Assembly: GCA_019695295.1 (NCBI GenBank)
Contig: JAIBAH010000040.1
Span: 1 to 35,199, forward strand
Origin: Bacteroidia bacterium
GTDB lineage: Bacteria; Bacteroidota; Bacteroidia; J057
Direction: 5' to 3'
DNA: 35,199 nt
Under the pieces are notes generated by a model. The model was not told the DNA's origin. It worked only from the letters and a program-made list of their open reading frames with translations, and made no database searches. Positions within the stretch are counted from its first letter, which is position 1; each line of letters begins with the position of its first letter. Positions 13,404-32,580 of this stretch are shown piece by piece. Both the position numbers and the translations under genes were made by a program.

Positions 13404-14264
13404 TTAATTATCGGTTTTTCTTTTTCCGGAAAACTTTTCCAGTTTTTCCTTTTGCTGTCGGGTAAGACTCTGATATCCTGAAAGTGAGATTTTGTCAAGG
13501 ATTTCATCGATTTCTTCCTGAGAGATTACCGTATCTTCCTCTTTTTTCTCAAAAGGATTCACAGTGACAGTAAATTTTCCTTTTCTGTTTTTTTTCTGAA
13601 ATAAATTACGGAAAGCGTCAAATACGATTTCCGTAAGGTCATTTCCTTTTTTCATCTGTAAGGTAAAAAGGTATCCGCAAAGGCCTCCCAGAAGAATTAA
13701 AATACCGGTAGCGGATGCGCCCCAGGATATAAACTCTATCAGCAATGCTACAAACGCAAAGAAAACCATTTTCATCTGTACAACCCCCCAGAGGGATACA
13801 GGATAATCCGGTGTAAGAAACGAAATGGAGAAAACCACCGCCATAATTACAGGAGCGGCTGTATATACAAGCTGATTGCCCATGATGAGGCTTAAAACGG
13901 CACCGCAAATACCCAGAAATGGAATCATGATAATGAGGTATTTCCGGAGTCTTTCCTGTCCCCATAACTGCATGAACATTCCCCCAAAAGACCAGAAAAA
14001 CATACAGTCAACCAGTAACCCGATAAGACCCTGAAGCGAAAGCGGGTAAATCAGGGCATAGGTGAAGATAGTCCACGGACGGAAAAGGGTTTTATTTCCT
14101 GTAAGGATGAAATAATTGATAATACTGCTATATTCCGGGCTTTTCCCTAAAACAGACAATATAACTGAAAGTAAAATCTGGAAAATCAGAGCCCCAATCA
14201 ACACTGCTACCCCCAGCCCGATGATACCGTGCTTCTGTATCATATTTTTAGTTTCTTCTATCAT
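13404..14264 (-). CDS. Rhomboid-family membrane protein without catalytic residues, DUF6576 tail
   Basis: A 286-residue membrane protein with the rhomboid helix pattern: RPWTIFTYAL near residues 62-71, several helices to about 203, then a cytosolic tail. The protease residues are absent. Where active rhomboids have GxSG this one reads TAAPVIM (about 135-141), and where they have the catalytic His before LGG it reads ILLGGLCGYL (188-200). The His/Asn pair of the second helix is also missing. The tail (EEIDEILDKISLSGYQSLT) matches the DUF6576 segment found behind Bacteroidota rhomboids. It sits 34 bases after the active rhomboid gene. A likely role is as a partner or regulator of that protease, or in handling membrane proteins as inactive rhomboids do elsewhere; this is inference. 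Confidence 0.8.
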   Translation of the reverse strand: MIEETKNMIQKHGIIGLGVAVLIGALIFQILLSVILSVLGKSPEYSSIINYFILTGNKTLFRPWTIFTYALIYPLSLQGLIGLLVDCMFFWSFGGMFMQLWGQERLRKYLIIMIPFLGICGAVLSLIMGNQLVYTAAPVIMAVVFSISFLTPDYPVSLWGVVQMKMVFFAFVALLIEFISWGASATGILILLGGLCGYLFTLQMKKGNDLTEIVFDAFRNLFQKKNRKGKFTVTVNPFEKKEEDTVISQEEIDEILDKISLSGYQSLTRQQKEKLEKFSGKRKTDN

Positions 14265-14298
14265 ATCAACCTTTGTTTAGCAGATTTTGAAGTGTAAT

Positions 14299-14955
14299 TT
14301 ATTTGATGGATGAATGTATGCCGGAGTAAAAGAAAATGATAGCGGATACCATTCCGGCAAGGTGACCGAAGTGGGAAATTCCGCCGGTGATTCCAGGAGC
14401 AACTCCTAATGCATCCAGTACTACCAGCAGGGAAGAAAGTCCGCCGATGGTCATCATCCATATTCTGGATTTCATGGTAATCGGGAAAGGCATAAAGAAG
14501 GTAATTCTCTGGTTTGGGAAAAATATGGCAAAGGCCACCATCACTCCAAAGATAGCACCGGAAGCACCCACAACCGGAATCGGGGAGGGGTCAAGCAGGG
14601 CAGTAAAAAAGGAACCTAAAACCCCGCAGAACAGATAAAAAGCCAGAAAACGTTTTGCCCCCAAAACCATTTCTATAATAGAGCCAAAGCTAATCAATAC
14701 CCACATATTGAAAAAAATATGAAAAAATCCACCGTGCGTAAAGAAAGCAGTTACCAGCTGAATTGGCAAAAAATTGCCCTCATCGTAAGTCCGGTGGATA
14801 ATCAGGCTGGATTTATGCAATACAAAAAACTGGTTTTTTATCACATTGATATTTTCTAATCCAAGAAGTCCAAGTAAGCCAAAGTCTAAAAACAAAAAAA
14901 CAATGACATTTACTATCACAATTCTTAATACAATCGGGGTGATATTGAGATTCAT
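14299..14955 (-). CDS. Rhomboid intramembrane serine protease
   Basis: A 218-residue polytopic membrane protease that cuts transmembrane helices of other proteins. The active site is complete: HGGFFHIFFNMW contains the His79/Asn83 pair, VGASGAIFG holds the nucleophile Ser132, and SHFGHLAGM carries the catalytic His198. The number and spacing of helices fit the six-helix bacterial type. It is the first gene of a probable minus-strand operon with the catalytically dead rhomboid and the exonuclease-fold protein. A possible -7 box for it lies at 15023-15030. I recall that rhomboid pairs next to an exonuclease-fold gene also occur in Bacteroides. Confidence 0.93.
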   Translation of the reverse strand: MNLNITPIVLRIVIVNVIVFLFLDFGLLGLLGLENINVIKNQFFVLHKSSLIIHRTYDEGNFLPIQLVTAFFTHGGFFHIFFNMWVLISFGSIIEMVLGAKRFLAFYLFCGVLGSFFTALLDPSPIPVVGASGAIFGVMVAFAIFFPNQRITFFMPFPITMKSRIWMMTIGGLSSLLVVLDALGVAPGITGGISHFGHLAGMVSAIIFFYSGIHSSIK

Positions 14956-15149: not shown

Positions 15150-17465
15150 CTATTGACGAATAATCTTATAGGTGTTTTTCCGGCTTCCTCCCGATAACTC
15201 CAGAATATATACACCTGAAGGAAGCTCTTTTACAGAAATAAATGAACGGAACTCACCGGAATAGAGCACTTTGCCCGTAATATCACAGAGAGTCATTCTC
15301 TCAAAAGGGGTTTCGCCCGTTAGCGTTTCAATCTGAATCCGGGATTCGGAAGGATTGGGATAAATTCTGACGGGGAATACCGTTTCGGGGGTGATGTCTG
15401 TAAGGGTGATGTCCCAGATATCGGCCATACACACTGAGATACTATCCAAAGAAGGCGAGCCGTCAAATAAACTGAACCCCTGATTCCATTCCCAGTAGGT
15501 ATAAGGAATCGCAAAGGAATCCAGTGCGGTTTTTACTGCTTCGGTATATCGGCAACGGCTGCCATCATCCGGAATATAGGGTTTGAACGAACCCCATTCG
15601 CCACAAAAAACAGGCAGTGAAGTTAAGTTGCTCCACTTTTTGATATGCCCGATTCCACTTGCGAGAGAGTCTGCATTTCCCCATACATTATAGGAATTGT
15701 AAGCCGGTTCGCCCCAGGTACCAATACTATTGGCCGCAATTGGAGGCATAGTGGCAGCATTATAGGGAAAAGGAATTCCGGTAGTGGCAACGGGGTCTCC
15801 CACCCAGCTTGCTCCCTGATGAGTGAATATCATAGGACTGTAATCATGAAAGGTATAAATCAGATTGCTGTCAGGGAGTGCACCCATGACTTCCAGTCCC
15901 CATGAAGAATTCCAGTTGTGGCCACCGGTGATAAGCATTCTCTCCGGATCCAGCGCATGTATTGTCTGGCAAAGCCGGGTTGCAGCCTGTTTCCATTGAG
16001 AGGCGGTAAGATTCCAGGGTTCATTATATACTTCAAACAATACTTGTTCGGGGTCAGTTCCTGCATACCTTGTGGCAATCTGTACCCAAAGTGCCTGTAT
16101 TTTTTCGAGGTCTTTGTCAAAGGAAGCCGAATCCAGTTTTCCGTGATGGTAATCCACAATGATTTTCATGCCTTTTTCGGAAGTCCACAGGATAAAAGAA
16201 TCTACGAGGGTAAAATAAGACACTGAGTCTATGGTATAAGGGGCTGAATCTCCCGCCCATACATCAAAGCATACCGGTAACCGCAGCGTCTGAAACCCCA
16301 TCTGATTCATCAGGTCAATATCCTCCCTGAAGGTACTGACATCCGGGAGGTTATGAATATAGTTGGCATATCCGATTGCGGGATTTCCGGCCCAGTAATT
16401 TTCAAGATAAGAAAGGTTCATTCCTTTGCCCAGCATTCCGGCCATATTCCAGGCATTTTGCGGGCTGTTAAGTGTGATAGTCTGAGTCAGGGTGTCTTGT
16501 GTACATCCATCCGTAACGATTTGGGTAAGAGGATGAGTACCCGGCTGAGAATAGGTATATTCCGGTTGAAATCCGGTTGCGGTGTCTCCGTTTCCGAAAT
16601 TCCACCAGAAGGACGAAGCGCCCTGAGTGGTATTCTGAAGGAATAGCCCGTATCCGTTTGTACTGAATGCAAAACCGGCCTGAGGCTCAAACTCATTGAT
16701 ATTCCAGACTGAAAGACTGTCAAATACGGTTTGATGGGCTATTTGCTGTAAAAAACCGGCAGTAGTCTGAGGAAGCCCGGCAGTAAAAGGAAGTCCTACG
16801 GGTGTTTTTTCATAAATAGTAGCATAAAATACGCAGGCGGTAAGATAGGAGCCTTCTATACTCGGGTGGCTGTTATCCGCCGACCAGAGATTAATCGTAG
16901 AATCCGCAGCACGGGAAGCCATCCAGGCCATTCCGGCAGGCGCCACAAGGGCTTCATTCATATCAGCCATCTGTACGTAACTGTTCCGGAGTCTGCCGGA
17001 CATTCCTGCATAGGTACATACAGGGGGATAGGAGGCGCAATTCTGTGCGTCCCCGTATTTTCTGCCCCAGGTCATATAGAATACGGTTTTTGCGCAGGCA
17101 TTATTTTTATGAATCAGGCTGTCCAGAATTTTTGCATAGGGAAATACATCCGTAGCAACCTGAGCGGGGGAAAAGGAAGGGAGCTGACTTTGTTCCTGCA
17201 AAATCACGTAATCCCAGGGTTTCTGCTGAATTTTTGCAAGCGAGGTTGCATTGGTCGTATGCAGATTAAAGGTGTATCCTCCGGGGGTATTGGAATCAAA
17301 ATCTATGGTATCGGCCGTACCCAATGCTAAATTGTAAAGTAACTGAGGCAGGTTGTTCACTGCGGTGTAGCTATTGCCCAAAAAAAGCATGTTTTTACGG
17401 CTCTGTGTATAACCCAGAGAAAAGGTCAGGCTAAACAAAAGGAAATAAGAATATAATTTAATCAT
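15150..17465 (-). CDS. Secreted DUF4886 (SGNH-like)-PKD-GH5 fusion enzyme with T9SS sorting domain
   Basis: A 771-residue exported protein with signal peptide (1-20). Residues 24-230 form a DUF4886/SGNH-hydrolase-like domain with FLGNSYT (Ser32), ILQEQS (88-93) and DNSH (Asp197/His200), a possible esterase triad. Residues 265-332 are a PKD domain (WNFGNGDTATG). Residues 340-690 are a GH5 glycosidase: acid/base Glu482 in VYNEPW, His540 in TFHDY, nucleophile Glu623 in FCGEWG. The last 75 residues are a T9SS type A sorting domain (YPNPSESRI through SGVYILEL). It should be exported to the surface or medium and act on beta-linked plant or microbial polysaccharide, perhaps removing acyl groups with the first domain. 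The exact substrate is not visible. Confidence 0.9.
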   Translation of the reverse strand: MIKLYSYFLLFSLTFSLGYTQSRKNMLFLGNSYTAVNNLPQLLYNLALGTADTIDFDSNTPGGYTFNLHTTNATSLAKIQQKPWDYVILQEQSQLPSFSPAQVATDVFPYAKILDSLIHKNNACAKTVFYMTWGRKYGDAQNCASYPPVCTYAGMSGRLRNSYVQMADMNEALVAPAGMAWMASRAADSTINLWSADNSHPSIEGSYLTACVFYATIYEKTPVGLPFTAGLPQTTAGFLQQIAHQTVFDSLSVWNINEFEPQAGFAFSTNGYGLFLQNTTQGASSFWWNFGNGDTATGFQPEYTYSQPGTHPLTQIVTDGCTQDTLTQTITLNSPQNAWNMAGMLGKGMNLSYLENYWAGNPAIGYANYIHNLPDVSTFREDIDLMNQMGFQTLRLPVCFDVWAGDSAPYTIDSVSYFTLVDSFILWTSEKGMKIIVDYHHGKLDSASFDKDLEKIQALWVQIATRYAGTDPEQVLFEVYNEPWNLTASQWKQAATRLCQTIHALDPERMLITGGHNWNSSWGLEVMGALPDSNLIYTFHDYSPMIFTHQGASWVGDPVATTGIPFPYNAATMPPIAANSIGTWGEPAYNSYNVWGNADSLASGIGHIKKWSNLTSLPVFCGEWGSFKPYIPDDGSRCRYTEAVKTALDSFAIPYTYWEWNQGFSLFDGSPSLDSISVCMADIWDITLTDITPETVFPVRIYPNPSESRIQIETLTGETPFERMTLCDITGKVLYSGEFRSFISVKELPSGVYILELSGGSRKNTYKIIRQ

Positions 17466-17767
17466 TGTATTGAAAATCTAAGAGATGAGTTAAGTAATCC
17501 AGGAAAATGCATCTGTCTTTTTGCTTAGAATTAAAAAATAAACAGACCACTTCACACATTCAATAAATAGCGCACAAAGATAACGTTTTGTATCCTATTT
17601 TGAAAAATGATTTTTTTACTGGATTTTATCGGTTTCCTATCAATGACTGGAGGAAATACGTATGAATAACCCGGTTTAAAGAGAATCGCTATAAATTATT
17701 TTAAATTCCTGATTTATATCATTTTTTGCTGAGTGGGCGTATCGTAGATTGCACCAAAATTGATATT
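17466..17767. other. Divergent promoter region between the GH5 fusion and the split metallopeptidase
   Basis: About 300 bases, A+T-rich, no gene. A TATCTTTG box for the minus-strand GH5 gene lies at 17575-17582. No convincing box was seen for the plus-strand gene. Confidence 0.5.
17575..17582 (-). promoter_or_regulatory. -7 box for the SGNH-GH5 gene
   Basis: TATCTTTG on the minus strand matches TAnnTTTG exactly. It implies a leader of about 100 bases before the start at 17465. No TTTG at -33 was found. Confidence 0.45.
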
Positions 17768-18949
17768 ATGAAAAAAAATATTTTATTCTTGTGTTTTTTG
17801 GGAATCGCTTTAAGTGGATTATTCGGTTACCCATTTACAGAATTCCACCGTACCGAGCATTTTAAAATATACTATAATGTAGATTCGGTGCCTTCTTGTA
17901 AAGATCTTTCCTATATCCCCTATGGCAGTAACCCCGCTCAATTGCCGGCTTTCGGGGACCCTGATTGGGAAGATGACCCTAAAAATCCAGGTAAAAAAAG
18001 AAGAACAATTCCATATTACATTCTTGATATCGGGAAAAATATGGAGAAAGCACTTAAAGTATATGTAGATATGGGCTTGGTTTCATACGACGCACCGCCT
18101 CAGGCTAATCCTGCTTTTACAGACGAAACGTATGTTTTACCGTACATTATAGAAGTATATGTACAATCTTTAAATTCTGGCGGAGGAACCCCTATTGACG
18201 GGGAAACGAGTACAAAAACCGGAGTGATTTCCATTAATCAGAATGTGCCGGTAAGCCCTGAACTTCCCAATAAGGTAGAAGTACTTCGAAAGGCTTGTGC
18301 ACACGAACTTTTACATCATGTAACATTTCGCAATTATAGTGCTTTGAATGCTACTGTAAGCGGGATTACTTTTTTTGTGGATGATTTTGCCGGCACTAAT
18401 ATTGCTGATAAAACCAGTGTTCAGTGGTGGTGGGAATGTTTGGCAACTCAGGCTGACAGGCTTGTTTTTCCTGATAGCAAACCGTATGAAGCTGAAAATT
18501 ATGCGATGGACCCAAGTGGGATTATTACCAATCTCCATAACTCCTGGGATGTGTGCAATGCCGATCCTCAGTGGTATATCAGCAGCGGGTTTCTAAGCTA
18601 TCTTTTGTATTACAGAGAAGGCCTAAAAGCGGACTTTGCTCAGATTTTTTTCTACCCCATCAAAAACCTTTCCAATACTTTTTCTTTTGTCAGGGAATCT
18701 CTGGATAAATATGTAAAAGAAAAACTGGGTTCAAAAGGATTAGGGTATGAATACCAGAATTATATGATTTGGTTAATGGAAAAGAGGAATCCTTCCTTTC
18801 ATATAATCCCTGGCGGAGACAACCGTAAATACGTTCAAACGGTGAAGCTGGACAAAAAAAAATATAGAGACTCAATCCACATACGCAATAGCGGTTCCTT
18901 ACATGGCACTAAAGGTGTTGAAAATAAATCAGTCACCGGATGTGGATGA
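17768..18949 (+). CDS. Putative secreted zinc metallopeptidase, N-terminal part (frameshifted)
   Basis: Codes for 393 residues starting with a signal peptide (MKKNILFLCFLGIALSGLFG). A zinc-protease site is visible: CAHELLHH, with His179, Glu180 and His183, and a possible third ligand Glu223 in WWWECLATQA, as in gluzincin peptidases. The family was not recognised more precisely. An in-frame ATG at 17726 lies upstream, but 17768 is chosen because the signal peptide then starts the protein. After a run of nine A at 18854-18862 the frame gives an unconvincing tail and ends at 18949. The next frame is open from shortly before that run and continues to 19685. Removing one A would give a single protein of about 638 residues. 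Confidence 0.7.
   Translation: MKKNILFLCFLGIALSGLFGYPFTEFHRTEHFKIYYNVDSVPSCKDLSYIPYGSNPAQLPAFGDPDWEDDPKNPGKKRRTIPYYILDIGKNMEKALKVYVDMGLVSYDAPPQANPAFTDETYVLPYIIEVYVQSLNSGGGTPIDGETSTKTGVISINQNVPVSPELPNKVEVLRKACAHELLHHVTFRNYSALNATVSGITFFVDDFAGTNIADKTSVQWWWECLATQADRLVFPDSKPYEAENYAMDPSGIITNLHNSWDVCNADPQWYISSGFLSYLLYYREGLKADFAQIFFYPIKNLSNTFSFVRESLDKYVKEKLGSKGLGYEYQNYMIWLMEKRNPSFHIIPGGDNRKYVQTVKLDKKKYRDSIHIRNSGSLHGTKGVENKSVTGCG
18854..18862 (+). repeat. Run of nine A at the probable frameshift site
   Basis: The homopolymer lies in the coding part of the split metallopeptidase gene. With eight A the upstream frame would pass directly into the downstream frame without a stop. Such tracts are prone to replication slippage, polymerase slippage and sequencing error. 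Confidence 0.65.
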
Positions 18950-19685
18950 TAAAACCTATACGATTAAAAACCGATTCAATAAAGAAGAGGCAGCGGAAAT
19001 GGCAGTAACTTACGCAATAGACGGCACGCCAACTCAGGGAAGAAGCTGTGAGGTATGGGTATATGAATGTAATAATGAAACCCGAAAACTGTTAAAAAAA
19101 TTGGGGCATGGAGATAGCCTTAATATTTCTTATGAAAAAGGAAAATGGACGGAAGTAGCCGTGACAAATCCTCTTCTCAGTGCCAATTCCAATGAAGTGA
19201 TTTCGATTATCCGGTATCCGTCTCTTGAAGGGAAATACAAGGGAAAAGTAATATTCTCCGGCGAAAACCCAAAATTGGATGCAATGTACACGATTACCCT
19301 CTCTGAACTGGATATTGAAATAAAAGATACCCTTGCAACCTGCAATTTTGAGTTTCATAAGGCGTATGCAAGAGATGGCTTTTATGCGAAAGGAACGGCA
19401 TTGAAAGGAAAAGCAGACCCCTTGGGGAATGTAACTATCATTGGTGCTGTTCAGGCATTTACCTATCCTAAAGGTTCACCCGGTTGCTGCGATTTTCCAC
19501 AAGTAAAAGAGGATCCAAAATGTGCGAAAATGAATGCCAATCCCTATTTCTGGAAATTTACCGGTAAAGTATCAGCGGAAGGCGGAAAATATTTTCTCAA
19601 AGGTTCAATCGCAGCAGGACTCAGTGCCAAAAAGTTCATGAAGGCCAGTGAAAATCTGTATAAATTTGAAACTGAGAGGGAATAG
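18903..19685 (+). CDS. C-terminal part of the split metallopeptidase (frameshifted)
   Basis: 260 codons if the ATG at 18903 were used, but this start lies inside the preceding reading frame (47-base overlap) and gives a protein with no signal peptide. The frame is open further upstream through the nine-A run, where a stop occurs only at 18843. The joined reading would run TYAIAVPYMALKVLKIN, which looks like a beta strand leading into a beta-sandwich module. The remainder is beta-rich with several Cys residues (GCCDF, DPKCAKMN), typical of exported proteins. I read it as the C-terminal domain or domains of the upstream peptidase rather than an independent gene. The function of this portion was not recognised. 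Confidence 0.6.
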   Translation: MALKVLKINQSPDVDDKTYTIKNRFNKEEAAEMAVTYAIDGTPTQGRSCEVWVYECNNETRKLLKKLGHGDSLNISYEKGKWTEVAVTNPLLSANSNEVISIIRYPSLEGKYKGKVIFSGENPKLDAMYTITLSELDIEIKDTLATCNFEFHKAYARDGFYAKGTALKGKADPLGNVTIIGAVQAFTYPKGSPGCCDFPQVKEDPKCAKMNANPYFWKFTGKVSAEGGKYFLKGSIAAGLSAKKFMKASENLYKFETERE

Positions 19686-24120: not shown

Positions 24121-25410
24121 ATGAAAACGAATCGCATTTATTTTTTCTTCGCTTTTTTCTTGCTCATGACAGGGATATCCCTCGCTCAGCCCAATGCTAC
24201 AATTACCGTAAATGGCAGATATATCATAGGGAACTGTGGAGATACCCTTGTTTTTAAAGGAGTAAATTATGCGCCTTACAACTGGGGCTACAGCAGTAAT
24301 CAGCTTCGGATTGATCAGATTGCACAAAGTGGTTCCAACGTTGTCAGGCTTCCGTGGTATGCAAGTGGAAATCCGGTTTTGTATGCAGATTATGTTAAAC
24401 TTGACAGTGCGATTTCCAAATGCATTCAGTACGATATGATTCCGGTGATTGAACTCCATGATCAGACTTGTCAGAATACTCCCGGCAATCTGATAGAGCT
24501 GGCAAATTTCTATACCCAACCGGCAATCCTGGCGATGATTCAGAAGTACAAACACAGCCTCATCGTGAATGTAGCCAATGAAGCCCTATACGTTAACTGG
24601 ACCGGAAATGCGGCACAGGCTACTCAGGATTACCTCAATGTATATAATACCATCGTCGGCAATCTTAGAAATGCAGGAATAGATGTTCCTATCATGATTG
24701 ACGGCCCGGATTGCGGAACCAATCTGGATGTTTTGGCCTCCACAGGTCCTTCTCTTATGGCCAATGACCCTATGCATAACCTCATCTTCAGTGCACATAC
24801 TTACTGGTATGCTTTCGCAAACAATGATTCGGCCACCAGCCTCGCCAAAATAAACAATGCAATGAATGCTGGCATTCCCTTTATTTTCGGAGAAATAGCC
24901 AACCTGCAGGATGACGCAACGCTGTGTCAATATACCCTGAATTACAAACCGATTCTCAGTATTTGTGAAACGAAAAAAATAGGCTGGATTGCATGGTCAT
25001 GGGACAATGATGGCTGCGCCCAGCGTCAGGTTACTACAGCAGGAAATTTTAACAGTCTTACCCCTTACGGAAATGTCGTCGTAAACAATCCTGTGTACGG
25101 GATAAAAAATACAGCCAGAAAAAGCCGCTTTCTTACCAATAACGGCTGTGCCACAACCGGAGTTCAGCCCCCGGCAGTATTTCAGGAAAAAATCCGGGTT
25201 TCAGAGAGCAGAGACGATGTCCGGCTTCTTTCCCTTGCTGAAGAGCCTTTGTTCTTTCAAATCTATTCCATCATGGGACAGGATGAAAAAAGACACACGC
25301 TTAATCCCGGACAGGAACTAACACTCAGCAGAGCCGATTTTACTCCCGGAGTTTATATCATCTGTGTGAATACCGGTAAAGGCTCCGTTTTTCGCAAAAT
25401 TCTGATTTAA
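24121..25410 (+). CDS. Secreted GH5-type glycosidase with T9SS sorting domain
   Basis: A 429-residue exported enzyme: signal peptide 1-22 (GISLAQ), GH5 catalytic domain about 25-335, and a C-terminal T9SS sorting domain of about 75 residues (PGVYIICVNTGKGS and basic end FRKILI). GH5 landmarks are FKGVNY (46-51), VVRLPWY (74-80), the acid/base Glu154 in VNVANEAL, His226/Tyr228 in SAHTYWY, the nucleophile Glu258 in IFGEIA, and WIAWSWDND. The layout resembles mannanase/endoglucanase members of GH5, but the exact substrate (mannan, cellulose, xyloglucan) cannot be told. It should act at the cell surface or outside. It ends before a terminator at 25530-25568. Confidence 0.88.
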   Translation: MKTNRIYFFFAFFLLMTGISLAQPNATITVNGRYIIGNCGDTLVFKGVNYAPYNWGYSSNQLRIDQIAQSGSNVVRLPWYASGNPVLYADYVKLDSAISKCIQYDMIPVIELHDQTCQNTPGNLIELANFYTQPAILAMIQKYKHSLIVNVANEALYVNWTGNAAQATQDYLNVYNTIVGNLRNAGIDVPIMIDGPDCGTNLDVLASTGPSLMANDPMHNLIFSAHTYWYAFANNDSATSLAKINNAMNAGIPFIFGEIANLQDDATLCQYTLNYKPILSICETKKIGWIAWSWDNDGCAQRQVTTAGNFNSLTPYGNVVVNNPVYGIKNTARKSRFLTNNGCATTGVQPPAVFQEKIRVSESRDDVRLLSLAEEPLFFQIYSIMGQDEKRHTLNPGQELTLSRADFTPGVYIICVNTGKGSVFRKILI

Positions 25411-30816: not shown

Positions 30817-32580
30817 TTATTCATGCATAATCATTACCTTTTGGGTAACTGCTTTATCATTTGTCTGCAATGAAAGGAAATAGATTCCGGATGGAAATTC
30901 TGCCGCATTAAAGAAAAACCGCTGATTACCGGAAGGAAACTTACCCTCGAAAAGAGTCAGTACTTTTTGTCCTACAAGATTGAATAACTCCAATTTTCCT
31001 TCTGTAGCATTGGAAAACGATACAGGAACAGCCGTCATGGCAGTTGCCGGATTGGGGTAAACAGGATGCATTTTCCCTTCTGTCAAAATATCCATTGCAC
31101 TTAACGTTTTTACCTCAAAGTCATAAAATCCGGTGGGTGCGGTAATCGGACGTACCTGAGACTTTCCGCTATTGGCATTTGCCGAGATAAAATATTCAAT
31201 CTTGCTGCCCGAGGGCTGAGCCGGAATATCTCCCACCCATTCAGTACCGCCGAAAACCTGAGTCATAGGTGCCGCCTGAAAATTCGGTGAAGGCTGTACC
31301 CGGTACATTACCGTTGCGTTGGCTATACCGCTCTGATGTTGAATCGAAGCCACTACCTGATATGGATTGGTGGTATTATAAGTATCTTCCAGTGACTGAT
31401 GGGTAATCAGCAAAGGCTCCGAAACCCCCAGAGAATGGGTAATACAATGAAGTGCGCCACTTTGCTGAATGATGTCATTGCAGTAGATTCCGGCAATCTG
31501 ATATCCGGGCAAAGTCTCCTGCAAAATCCGGATTGCCGTTGTATCATATTTCTCTTCGTATATAGGCAGCAGAATTTTTTTGTTCACAAAGGTGAAGTTT
31601 GCATAAGTACGGTAGTCCCCTCCATTATTGGGGTACGCATTTCCGGCATCCGGAGGCATCGGAATTCGTACTACTTTATAGGGAGTTCCGAAAGGAGAGT
31701 TAAAATTACTCATCACATACTGAAGATTCGTATTGATTTGGGGGCCGTCCGCAATGCCTGTGGGGTATTCCCCTACGAGCAGGGTTTGTTCATCCGTTAG
31801 TTTCATGTGCATATCTATATGATGAATCCCGTCATAGGGCAAAACATCCATTTTAATATATCTGCCGTAGTCAATTCCCATAAATTCATGCATGATAGTA
31901 TCTATCTGAGCAGCGGTTTTAGGACTAAGGCTGTAACCGGAACCCATATTTTCATTCAGCACTAATTTGGAGGAAAAAGCCGTTCCCATGCCATCAGACA
32001 TGAAGTTTCCGCCGGTATGCACGAGGTCGTAAGGCAATTGAGTCGTTGCATAATGAGGAATACCAAAATCCGTAGCAATCGCCTCCGGTATTACATCATC
32101 CAAAGGGCGGGGCCGGTTGTAGATCCAGTCCACAAACAGGAGGTCTTCCACCTGATTTTTATAAATTGTATTACCGCCATAATCCCGCATCCAGATTGTA
32201 TTGGAGTTTTTTTGAAGAAACTTTACATTGGTAAGGGGAATATTGTTCGTAGTCAGGTTTGATTTTACGGCGCTTGAGTCGGAGCAAATAATTACAACGA
32301 GACACTCAGTCTGTGCTTCCTTGACGATTTGCCTCAAAATACCGGGAAAAGTTCGCCATGTAATAAACAAAGCCTGAATCTCTTCCCATTCAGCCATCGT
32401 TCTCACGGGAAATCCCGGAGGCACAGTGATTGCGTCAGTAGCATAAGCCCTTGAGGAGGCATAGGCAGGGATTGCACTCTTTTCCTCAGGAGTAGTCCAT
32501 TTTGGCAGGTCGCTTTGAATCTGAGCGAAAAGAGGGAGTAAGGTAAAAAGGAGAATTCCGCTACACAATATTTTTCTCAT
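30817..32580 (-). CDS. Secreted agmatine/peptidylarginine deiminase-family protein with T9SS sorting domain
   Basis: A 587-residue exported protein (signal peptide 1-20) with a guanidino-group-modifying domain of the Porphyromonas-type peptidylarginine deiminase (PAD_porph) family, about residues 55-395. Conserved active-site landmarks are present: Trp130 and Asp133 in WMRDYGG, TGGNFM (189-194), His254/Asp256 in HHIDMHM and the nucleophile Cys379 in GALHCITHSLG. An extra beta domain (about 400-495) and a T9SS sorting domain (YPNPATAM, GIYFLSLQ) follow, as in the secreted PPAD of Porphyromonas gingivalis. Such enzymes turn arginine side chains or agmatine into citrulline or carbamoylputrescine plus ammonia. 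Whether proteins or small molecules are the substrate cannot be told from sequence. It is divergent from the GDPD gene. Confidence 0.88.
   Translation of the reverse strand: MRKILCSGILLFTLLPLFAQIQSDLPKWTTPEEKSAIPAYASSRAYATDAITVPPGFPVRTMAEWEEIQALFITWRTFPGILRQIVKEAQTECLVVIICSDSSAVKSNLTTNNIPLTNVKFLQKNSNTIWMRDYGGNTIYKNQVEDLLFVDWIYNRPRPLDDVIPEAIATDFGIPHYATTQLPYDLVHTGGNFMSDGMGTAFSSKLVLNENMGSGYSLSPKTAAQIDTIMHEFMGIDYGRYIKMDVLPYDGIHHIDMHMKLTDEQTLLVGEYPTGIADGPQINTNLQYVMSNFNSPFGTPYKVVRIPMPPDAGNAYPNNGGDYRTYANFTFVNKKILLPIYEEKYDTTAIRILQETLPGYQIAGIYCNDIIQQSGALHCITHSLGVSEPLLITHQSLEDTYNTTNPYQVVASIQHQSGIANATVMYRVQPSPNFQAAPMTQVFGGTEWVGDIPAQPSGSKIEYFISANANSGKSQVRPITAPTGFYDFEVKTLSAMDILTEGKMHPVYPNPATAMTAVPVSFSNATEGKLELFNLVGQKVLTLFEGKFPSGNQRFFFNAAEFPSGIYFLSLQTNDKAVTQKVMIMHE

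Follow-up and report, generated by a model that had tools for sequence, protein, structure and literature searches.

Within the window, the whole stretch of 35,199 nucleotides that was analysed, positions 15150-17465 were read on the minus strand as a single intact open reading frame (ORF) of 771 aa. The plus-strand reading of the same interval contains many stops. The following features were assigned:

15150..17465, minus strand: entire fused ORF, 771 aa, with the stop codon at 15150-15152
17406..17465, minus strand: residues 1-20, hydrophobic N-terminus resembling a signal peptide (by sequence reading)
16704..17402, minus strand: residues 22-254, DUF4886/SGNH-fold domain (Pfam, alignment, model)
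17370-17372, minus strand: Ser32 codon
16875-16877, minus strand: Asp197 codon
16866-16868, minus strand: His200 codon
16464..16691, minus strand: residues 259-334, PKD domain (Pfam)
15396..16463, minus strand: residues 335-690, GH5 (beta/alpha)8 domain (Pfam, alignment, model)
16020-16022, minus strand: Glu482 codon, putative acid/base
15597-15599, minus strand: Glu623 codon, putative nucleophile
15153..15368, minus strand: residues 700-771, T9SS type A C-terminal sorting domain (Pfam, NCBIfam)

An earlier note on this DNA had claimed that DUF4886, PKD and GH5 domains and a T9SS tail are combined in one polypeptide. The domain searches confirmed this, with all domains above their curated cut-offs. 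Pfam matched DUF4886 (PF16227) to residues 71-242 (E 9.3e-8, 31.8 bits against a gathering cut-off of 26.7), PKD_4 to residues 279-331 (E 6.7e-8, above cut-off), Cellulase/GH5 (PF00150) to residues 379-662 (E 4.6e-38, 131.7 bits against a gathering cut-off of 23.5) and Por_Secre_tail to residues 701-769 (E 1.2e-9, above cut-off). The NCBIfam model TIGR04183 (T9SS type A sorting domain) scored 40.5 bits, its cut-off being 23. The active-site residues that had been named, S32, D197, H200, E482 and E623, were all found at these numbers, and each is conserved in the three genus genomes that were examined.

In the GH5 half, the MtGlu5 residues aligned with E482 and E623 are Glu149 and Glu393. Alignment A1 has 13 rows, the window among them, and E482 and E623 are invariant in all of these. 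A full-length model was predicted (pLDDT 89.3, pTM 0.75) on alignment A4, in which the first 100 columns are noisy from GH5-only rows; the mixed alignment A5 was discarded, as it had conserved columns in the SGNH part although half of its rows were GH5-only. The model matched MtGlu5 with Z 34.9 (304 aligned, 2.4 A), TmCel5A with Z 34.4 and FnCel5A, presumably a GH5_25 member, with Z 34.1. TmCel5A-mannotriose and TmCel5A-cellobiose entries were among the fold matches, and CelC and GH5_4 enzymes followed close behind (Z 32-33). Among the top matches by sequence and by fold are thus MtGlu5 and TmCel5A, both of GH5_25, with CelC/GH5_4 nearly as close in fold. MtGlu5 is described as a GH5_25 member in which Glu149 is the general acid/base and Glu393 the nucleophile (PMC9063844), and TmCel5A as active on both beta-glucan and beta-mannan (PMC3526467). 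The intact GH5 active site that had been proposed is supported by the alignment of E482/E623 with the MtGlu5 catalytic pair and by the fold match. Sequence and model firmly point to a predicted endo-beta-1,4-glycanase type.

The SGNH and PKD domains were also modelled together (pLDDT 93.4; in this model residues 1-18 have pLDDT < 50). Two DUF4886 structures were far ahead of all other fold matches: 4i8i (Z 26.1, 221 aligned, 2.2 A) and 4s1p (Z 23.0, 176 aligned, 1.9 A). The acetyl xylan esterases 7ddy (Z 17.2) and Axe2 (Z 16.7) came next, and many SGNH esterases match at Z about 15-17. On this predicted model the first domain has an SGNH fold. The earlier note had named a model with no SGNH pocket in this domain as evidence against its reading; at fold level the model points the other way, because it matches the DUF4886 crystal structures.

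We take S32, G62/G63 and D197/H200 to represent SGNH blocks I, II and V. Asp197 and His200 (the block V Asp-x-x-His) are invariant in all 54 rows of A6, an alignment that contains the window sequence, while Ser32 and Gly62/Gly63 are present in at least 90% of the 54 rows. The description of the SGNH site as intact therefore stands for the Ser/Asp/His triad but not for the block III Asn of textbook SGNH enzymes. By sequence, this Asn is replaced by Gln, and the stretch reads LQEQSQ. Both Q90 and Q92 are invariant in the 54 A6 rows (window included). The 4s1p sequence has QEM at the block III position, and since it retains Q90 but has Met at Q92, Q90 is the likelier candidate to stand in for Asn in the oxyanion hole. 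In CE2 enzymes the block III Asn supplies an oxyanion-hole contact (PMC2661963). A 2022 review counts DUF4886 among five SGNH families in which no member has a known function (PMC9487903), and the literature searched yielded no tested activity for any DUF4886 protein. A 2026 paper describes BcCE25, an SGNH mannan esterase of a newly named family (PMC13276840).

The same full architecture was found without stops in all three genus genomes examined, the other two proteins being 67% and 59% identical to that of the window. Constraint among the three copies was compared by dN alone, as dS was estimable in 2 of 15 comparisons. The lowest dN was obtained for the SGNH domain (0.135-0.201), followed by the linker plus GH5 (0.237-0.381), the PKD domain (0.374-0.516) and the sorting domain (0.648-0.728). 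Thus both catalytic domains are held tighter than the PKD and sorting domains.

Searches for the fusion outside the genus were negative at each level covered. It was present in 3 of 100 genomes of relatives and in 3 of 22 genomes of the order, in both cases the three of the genus. In the class and phylum draws it was present in 1 of 395 genomes each, the window's own; here the two best candidates per genome were scored, and the class matches listed go down to about E 5e-52, so that a diverged fusion could be missed. Among GH5 loci from named genomes (the best 80 of 582 confirmed), one was fused, that of the genus member KLAP112. For the other 79, an SGNH match was absent from the DNA around the GH5, with some of these loci ending just upstream of the GH5 ORF, where the upstream part may be off the contig. 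Among loci L001-L089, SGNH and GH5 share an ORF in the proteins of the genus only. In three genomes (G015, G346, G358) the SGNH ORF is cut by a contig end; no separated GH5 half was detected for them, and the matches covered just query residues about 610-771, mostly sorting domain. Unusually long SGNH ORFs span 589-756 aa. Nine of them (L077-L084, L086) showed no GH5 in a Pfam scan that left G327 and G042 outside, and none was seen in L088 by BLAST. Plasmid records gave matches in 3 of 72,556 cases, to the GH5 part only.

The two halves are found separately outside the genus. In the class draw, 159 of 395 genomes had a match to the fused protein. Among the matches listed, which reach down to about E 5e-52, all except the window's lie on the SGNH side (end at or before query residue 373) or on the GH5 side (start at or after residue 327). 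The first half corresponds to a common free SGNH-PKD-T9SS protein, mostly of ~420-470 aa. Ten stand-alone SGNH-PKD proteins were scanned whole: the sorting domain was matched in all ten (nine above cut-off), DUF4886 was above cut-off in nine and PKD was matched in nine. The GH5 half corresponds to a stand-alone enzyme. Among the best 80 of 582 loci, its closest free relatives come from two Chitinophagaceae MAGs (46-47% identity, 380-384 aa, sorting-domain match absent), followed by two Saprospiraceae MAGs (45% identity, 468-473 aa) with borderline sorting domains. The sorting domain of L093 scored 28.7 bits against 27 (Pfam) and 20.6 against 23 (NCBIfam), that of L094 23.3 against 27 and 23.7 against 23. 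Mucilaginibacter species have a free GH5 relative of roughly 360-410 aa. Elsewhere, a 1657-aa ORF (G632:C18:18287-20779) contains two GH5-domain matches.

Trees were built from 53 SGNH and 91 GH5 stretches, a set in which a gene can be represented by more than one locus. L087, which duplicates the gene of L056, had been dropped before this count, as had L089, L021, L028 and short matches. Both were quick trees without bootstrap, with 51 of the 53 SGNH stretches and 47 of the 91 GH5 stretches as rows, each together with the three fused domains. In the GH5 tree the fused domains form a single clade (SH-aLRT 100), nested in a poorly resolved group of 17 rows (SH-aLRT 93) that includes Saprospiraceae, Chitinophagaceae, Arcicella, Fibrella and Acidobacteriota GH5. 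The SGNH tree likewise gives a single clade (SH-aLRT 99). This clade is joined (92) to four GH5-free SGNH-PKD proteins from another order, and three SGNH proteins from the genus's own family are placed elsewhere. Because the fused proteins form one clade in both trees, the simplest account would be a single GH5 insertion between the PKD and sorting domains of an SGNH-PKD-T9SS gene. The recipient gene was perhaps acquired from outside the family of the genus.

The spacer between PKD and sorting domain also holds additional sequence in other proteins. A ~190-aa insert is present in the five aligned rows of a six-row SGNH clade, and in G074 two HYDIN-type Ig domains occupy this position. The five rows with the ~190-aa insert are L077, L078, L080, L084 and L088 (603-630 aa); the insert has no Pfam match and by eye looks like two Ig-like repeats. 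L079 groups with them in the SGNH tree and lies outside that alignment. A 756-aa ORF of L086 (6273-8540, plus strand) has a diverged DUF4886 just below cut-off and a T9SS tail, with about 385 residues without identified domain between them.

The surroundings of the fused gene were inspected for related functions. All 23 window ORFs of at least 200 aa were scanned, and no SusC/SusD-type polysaccharide utilisation locus (PUL) was detected on the contig. A PUL around the gene was rejected, as none was present in the window nor in the 10 neighbouring ORFs of G001 and G002. Housekeeping genes, genes without known function and unrelated T9SS genes make up these 10 ORFs. The remaining ORFs of the window fall into the same categories, save a second GH5 and a beta-helix protein, and the contig encodes other proteins with a T9SS tail. 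The second GH5 (24121-25410, plus strand) lies about 7 kb from the fused gene. Of its eight solved relatives, the six that head the list are named mannanases. A 64% identical stretch was found inside a 1050-aa ORF on contig C58, and no relative in G001. The second GH5 was also considered as a close copy of the fused domain. This was rejected, since it is not among the fused protein's 35 same-genome matches and its relatives are led by beta-mannanases. A GH130 mannan phosphorylase was matched in none of the three genus genomes.

We take CtCel5C-CE2 of Clostridium thermocellum to be a cellulosomal protein, whereas the fused ORF carries a T9SS tail. Like the fused ORF, CtCel5C-CE2 joins a GH5 cellulase and an SGNH-fold acetylesterase in one chain, but the cellulase comes first and the esterase is a CE2 enzyme with its own jelly-roll domain rather than DUF4886 (PMC2661963). 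In the CE2 layout the jelly-roll domain is N-terminal to the SGNH domain (PMC2661963). Such a domain is absent from the model of the fused protein, where the first SGNH strand (residues 23-29) lies right behind the signal-like stretch. The closest structures of the SGNH fold, 4i8i (Bacteroides uniformis, titled DUF4886 family protein) and 4s1p (Slackia heliotrinireducens), are chains of 259 and 184 residues without PKD, GH5 or sorting domain, and their titles name no activity. MtGlu5, TmCel5A and FnCel5A share the catalytic fold, both glutamates and the FTHQGxxW loop with the GH5 half, but are 24-32% identical in structural alignments and have no esterase domain; MtGlu5 has an inserted CBM, unlike the fused ORF. 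The multi-modular cellulases of Ca. Paraporphyromonas polyenzymogenes resemble the fused ORF as Bacteroidota proteins that unite multiple catalytic domains with a T9SS tail, but are described as GH-GH pairs, GH5-GH5 and GH5-GH26, rather than as esterase-GH5 fusions (PMC5831590). The widespread SGNH-PKD-T9SS protein corresponds to the first ~335 residues, with at most 60% identity (G212), and to the sorting domain, but has no GH5. A DUF4886-GH5 pairing was not found in the literature searched, in agreement with the earlier remark that no characterised enzyme with this domain order was known. In principle the combination has a precedent, since CtCel5C-CE2 already unites an SGNH esterase with a GH5, and multi-catalytic T9SS cellulases are known from rumen Bacteroidota (PMC5831590); the pairing with DUF4886 appears to be a new variant.

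Based on these observations, we lean modestly towards a secreted enzyme with two active sites that would combine de-esterification and endo-cleavage of acetylated beta-1,4-glucan or (gluco)mannan. A GH5_25-like endoglycanase domain would have entered the PKD/sorting-domain spacer of the widespread SGNH-PKD-T9SS protein once, in the genus ancestor. The T9SS tail would direct export from the cell or onto its surface. The SGNH (DUF4886) half would remove O-acyl groups, most likely acetyl, via the Ser-His-Asp triad, and the GH5 half would cut the exposed beta-1,4 glucan, mannan or glucomannan backbone by a retaining two-glutamate mechanism. We infer, in the first case by analogy, that the DUF4886 half may have esterase activity with acetyl as leaving group, that both halves may act on the same polymer and that the GH5 probably joined the SGNH-PKD-T9SS gene. 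An enzyme that removes side groups and cuts the same polysaccharide had been suggested in the earlier note; the two conserved catalytic domains, the secretion tail and the endo type of the GH5 fit this suggestion, whereas the contig without a PUL does not. The replaced block III Asn, the solitary gene and the stand-alone SGNH-PKD proteins without glycanase also speak against combined esterase and cleavage activity.

Acetylated glucomannan is a first guess for the substrate, because GH5_25 uses both backbones, a mannanase-like second GH5 is near and the CtCel5C-CE2 esterase prefers acetylated glucomannan over xylan (PMC2661963). However, the lack of GH130 in all three genus genomes weakens a reading in terms of mannan catabolism, and this counts against the guess together with the missing relative of the second GH5 in G001 and the contig without a PUL.

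Rather unlikely, though to be taken seriously, is that the GH5 is the sole working polysaccharide enzyme, with the SGNH domain a substrate-binding module or an esterase for a surface glycan or lipid, retained because it belongs to the ancestral chassis. The SGNH-PKD-T9SS protein is widespread without GH5, and as the listed matches to the fused protein are one-sided, its native job requires no attached glycanase. The SGNH esterase site of CtCE2 can moreover also bind cellulose (PMC2661963). Against this reading, none of the three fused proteins has lost Ser, Asp or His, and their most conserved part is the SGNH domain, which argues for retained catalysis, leaving the substrate aside.

Quite improbable is a fortuitous fusion, in which the domains share a secretion signal alone and act independently on different polymers. 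The ~190-aa region and the HYDIN-type Ig domains of G074 in the same spacer indicate that a domain can occupy it without evident functional coupling, but here a single ORF has persisted in three species whose proteins are 58-67% identical, and both sites have stayed intact. An assembly or gene-calling artefact joining two genes, conceivable for a draft of 223 contigs, is refuted by the same stop-free architecture in three of three genus genomes, the public MAG KLAP112 among them, and the fusion is genuine.

Returning to the two-active-site enzyme, a natural glycanase partner would narrow the substrate guess for DUF4886 to carbohydrates. The fused ORF provides a functional clue for DUF4886 and makes it possible to study both halves jointly in one construct. 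As a tentative extension, DUF4886 may be a carbohydrate-esterase family that has so far gone unrecognised and whose oxyanion hole is formed with Gln. It would deacetylate beta-mannan, glucomannan or some other acetylated beta-1,4-glycan before an endo-enzyme of the GH5_25 type cuts, and SGNH-PKD-T9SS may be a secreted chassis that repeatedly accepted modules in its spacer. If DUF4886 is a carbohydrate esterase, the fusion would be its Rosetta stone; apart from this clue, it would be a further esterase-glycanase fusion, as in CtCel5C-CE2.

Several other genes of the window were noted. Directly downstream of the fused gene (13404-14955, minus strand) are genes for a rhomboid protein and a DUF6576 membrane protein. 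They follow in the same order in G002, and in G001 neither was detected within 9.5 kb downstream. Two ORFs without Pfam match (17726-18949 and 18903-19685, plus strand) overlap by 47 bases in different frames and could be one frameshifted gene. The ORF at 30817-32580 (minus strand) combines a PAD_porph domain and a T9SS sorting tail, which we take to be the layout of secreted peptidyl-arginine deiminases.
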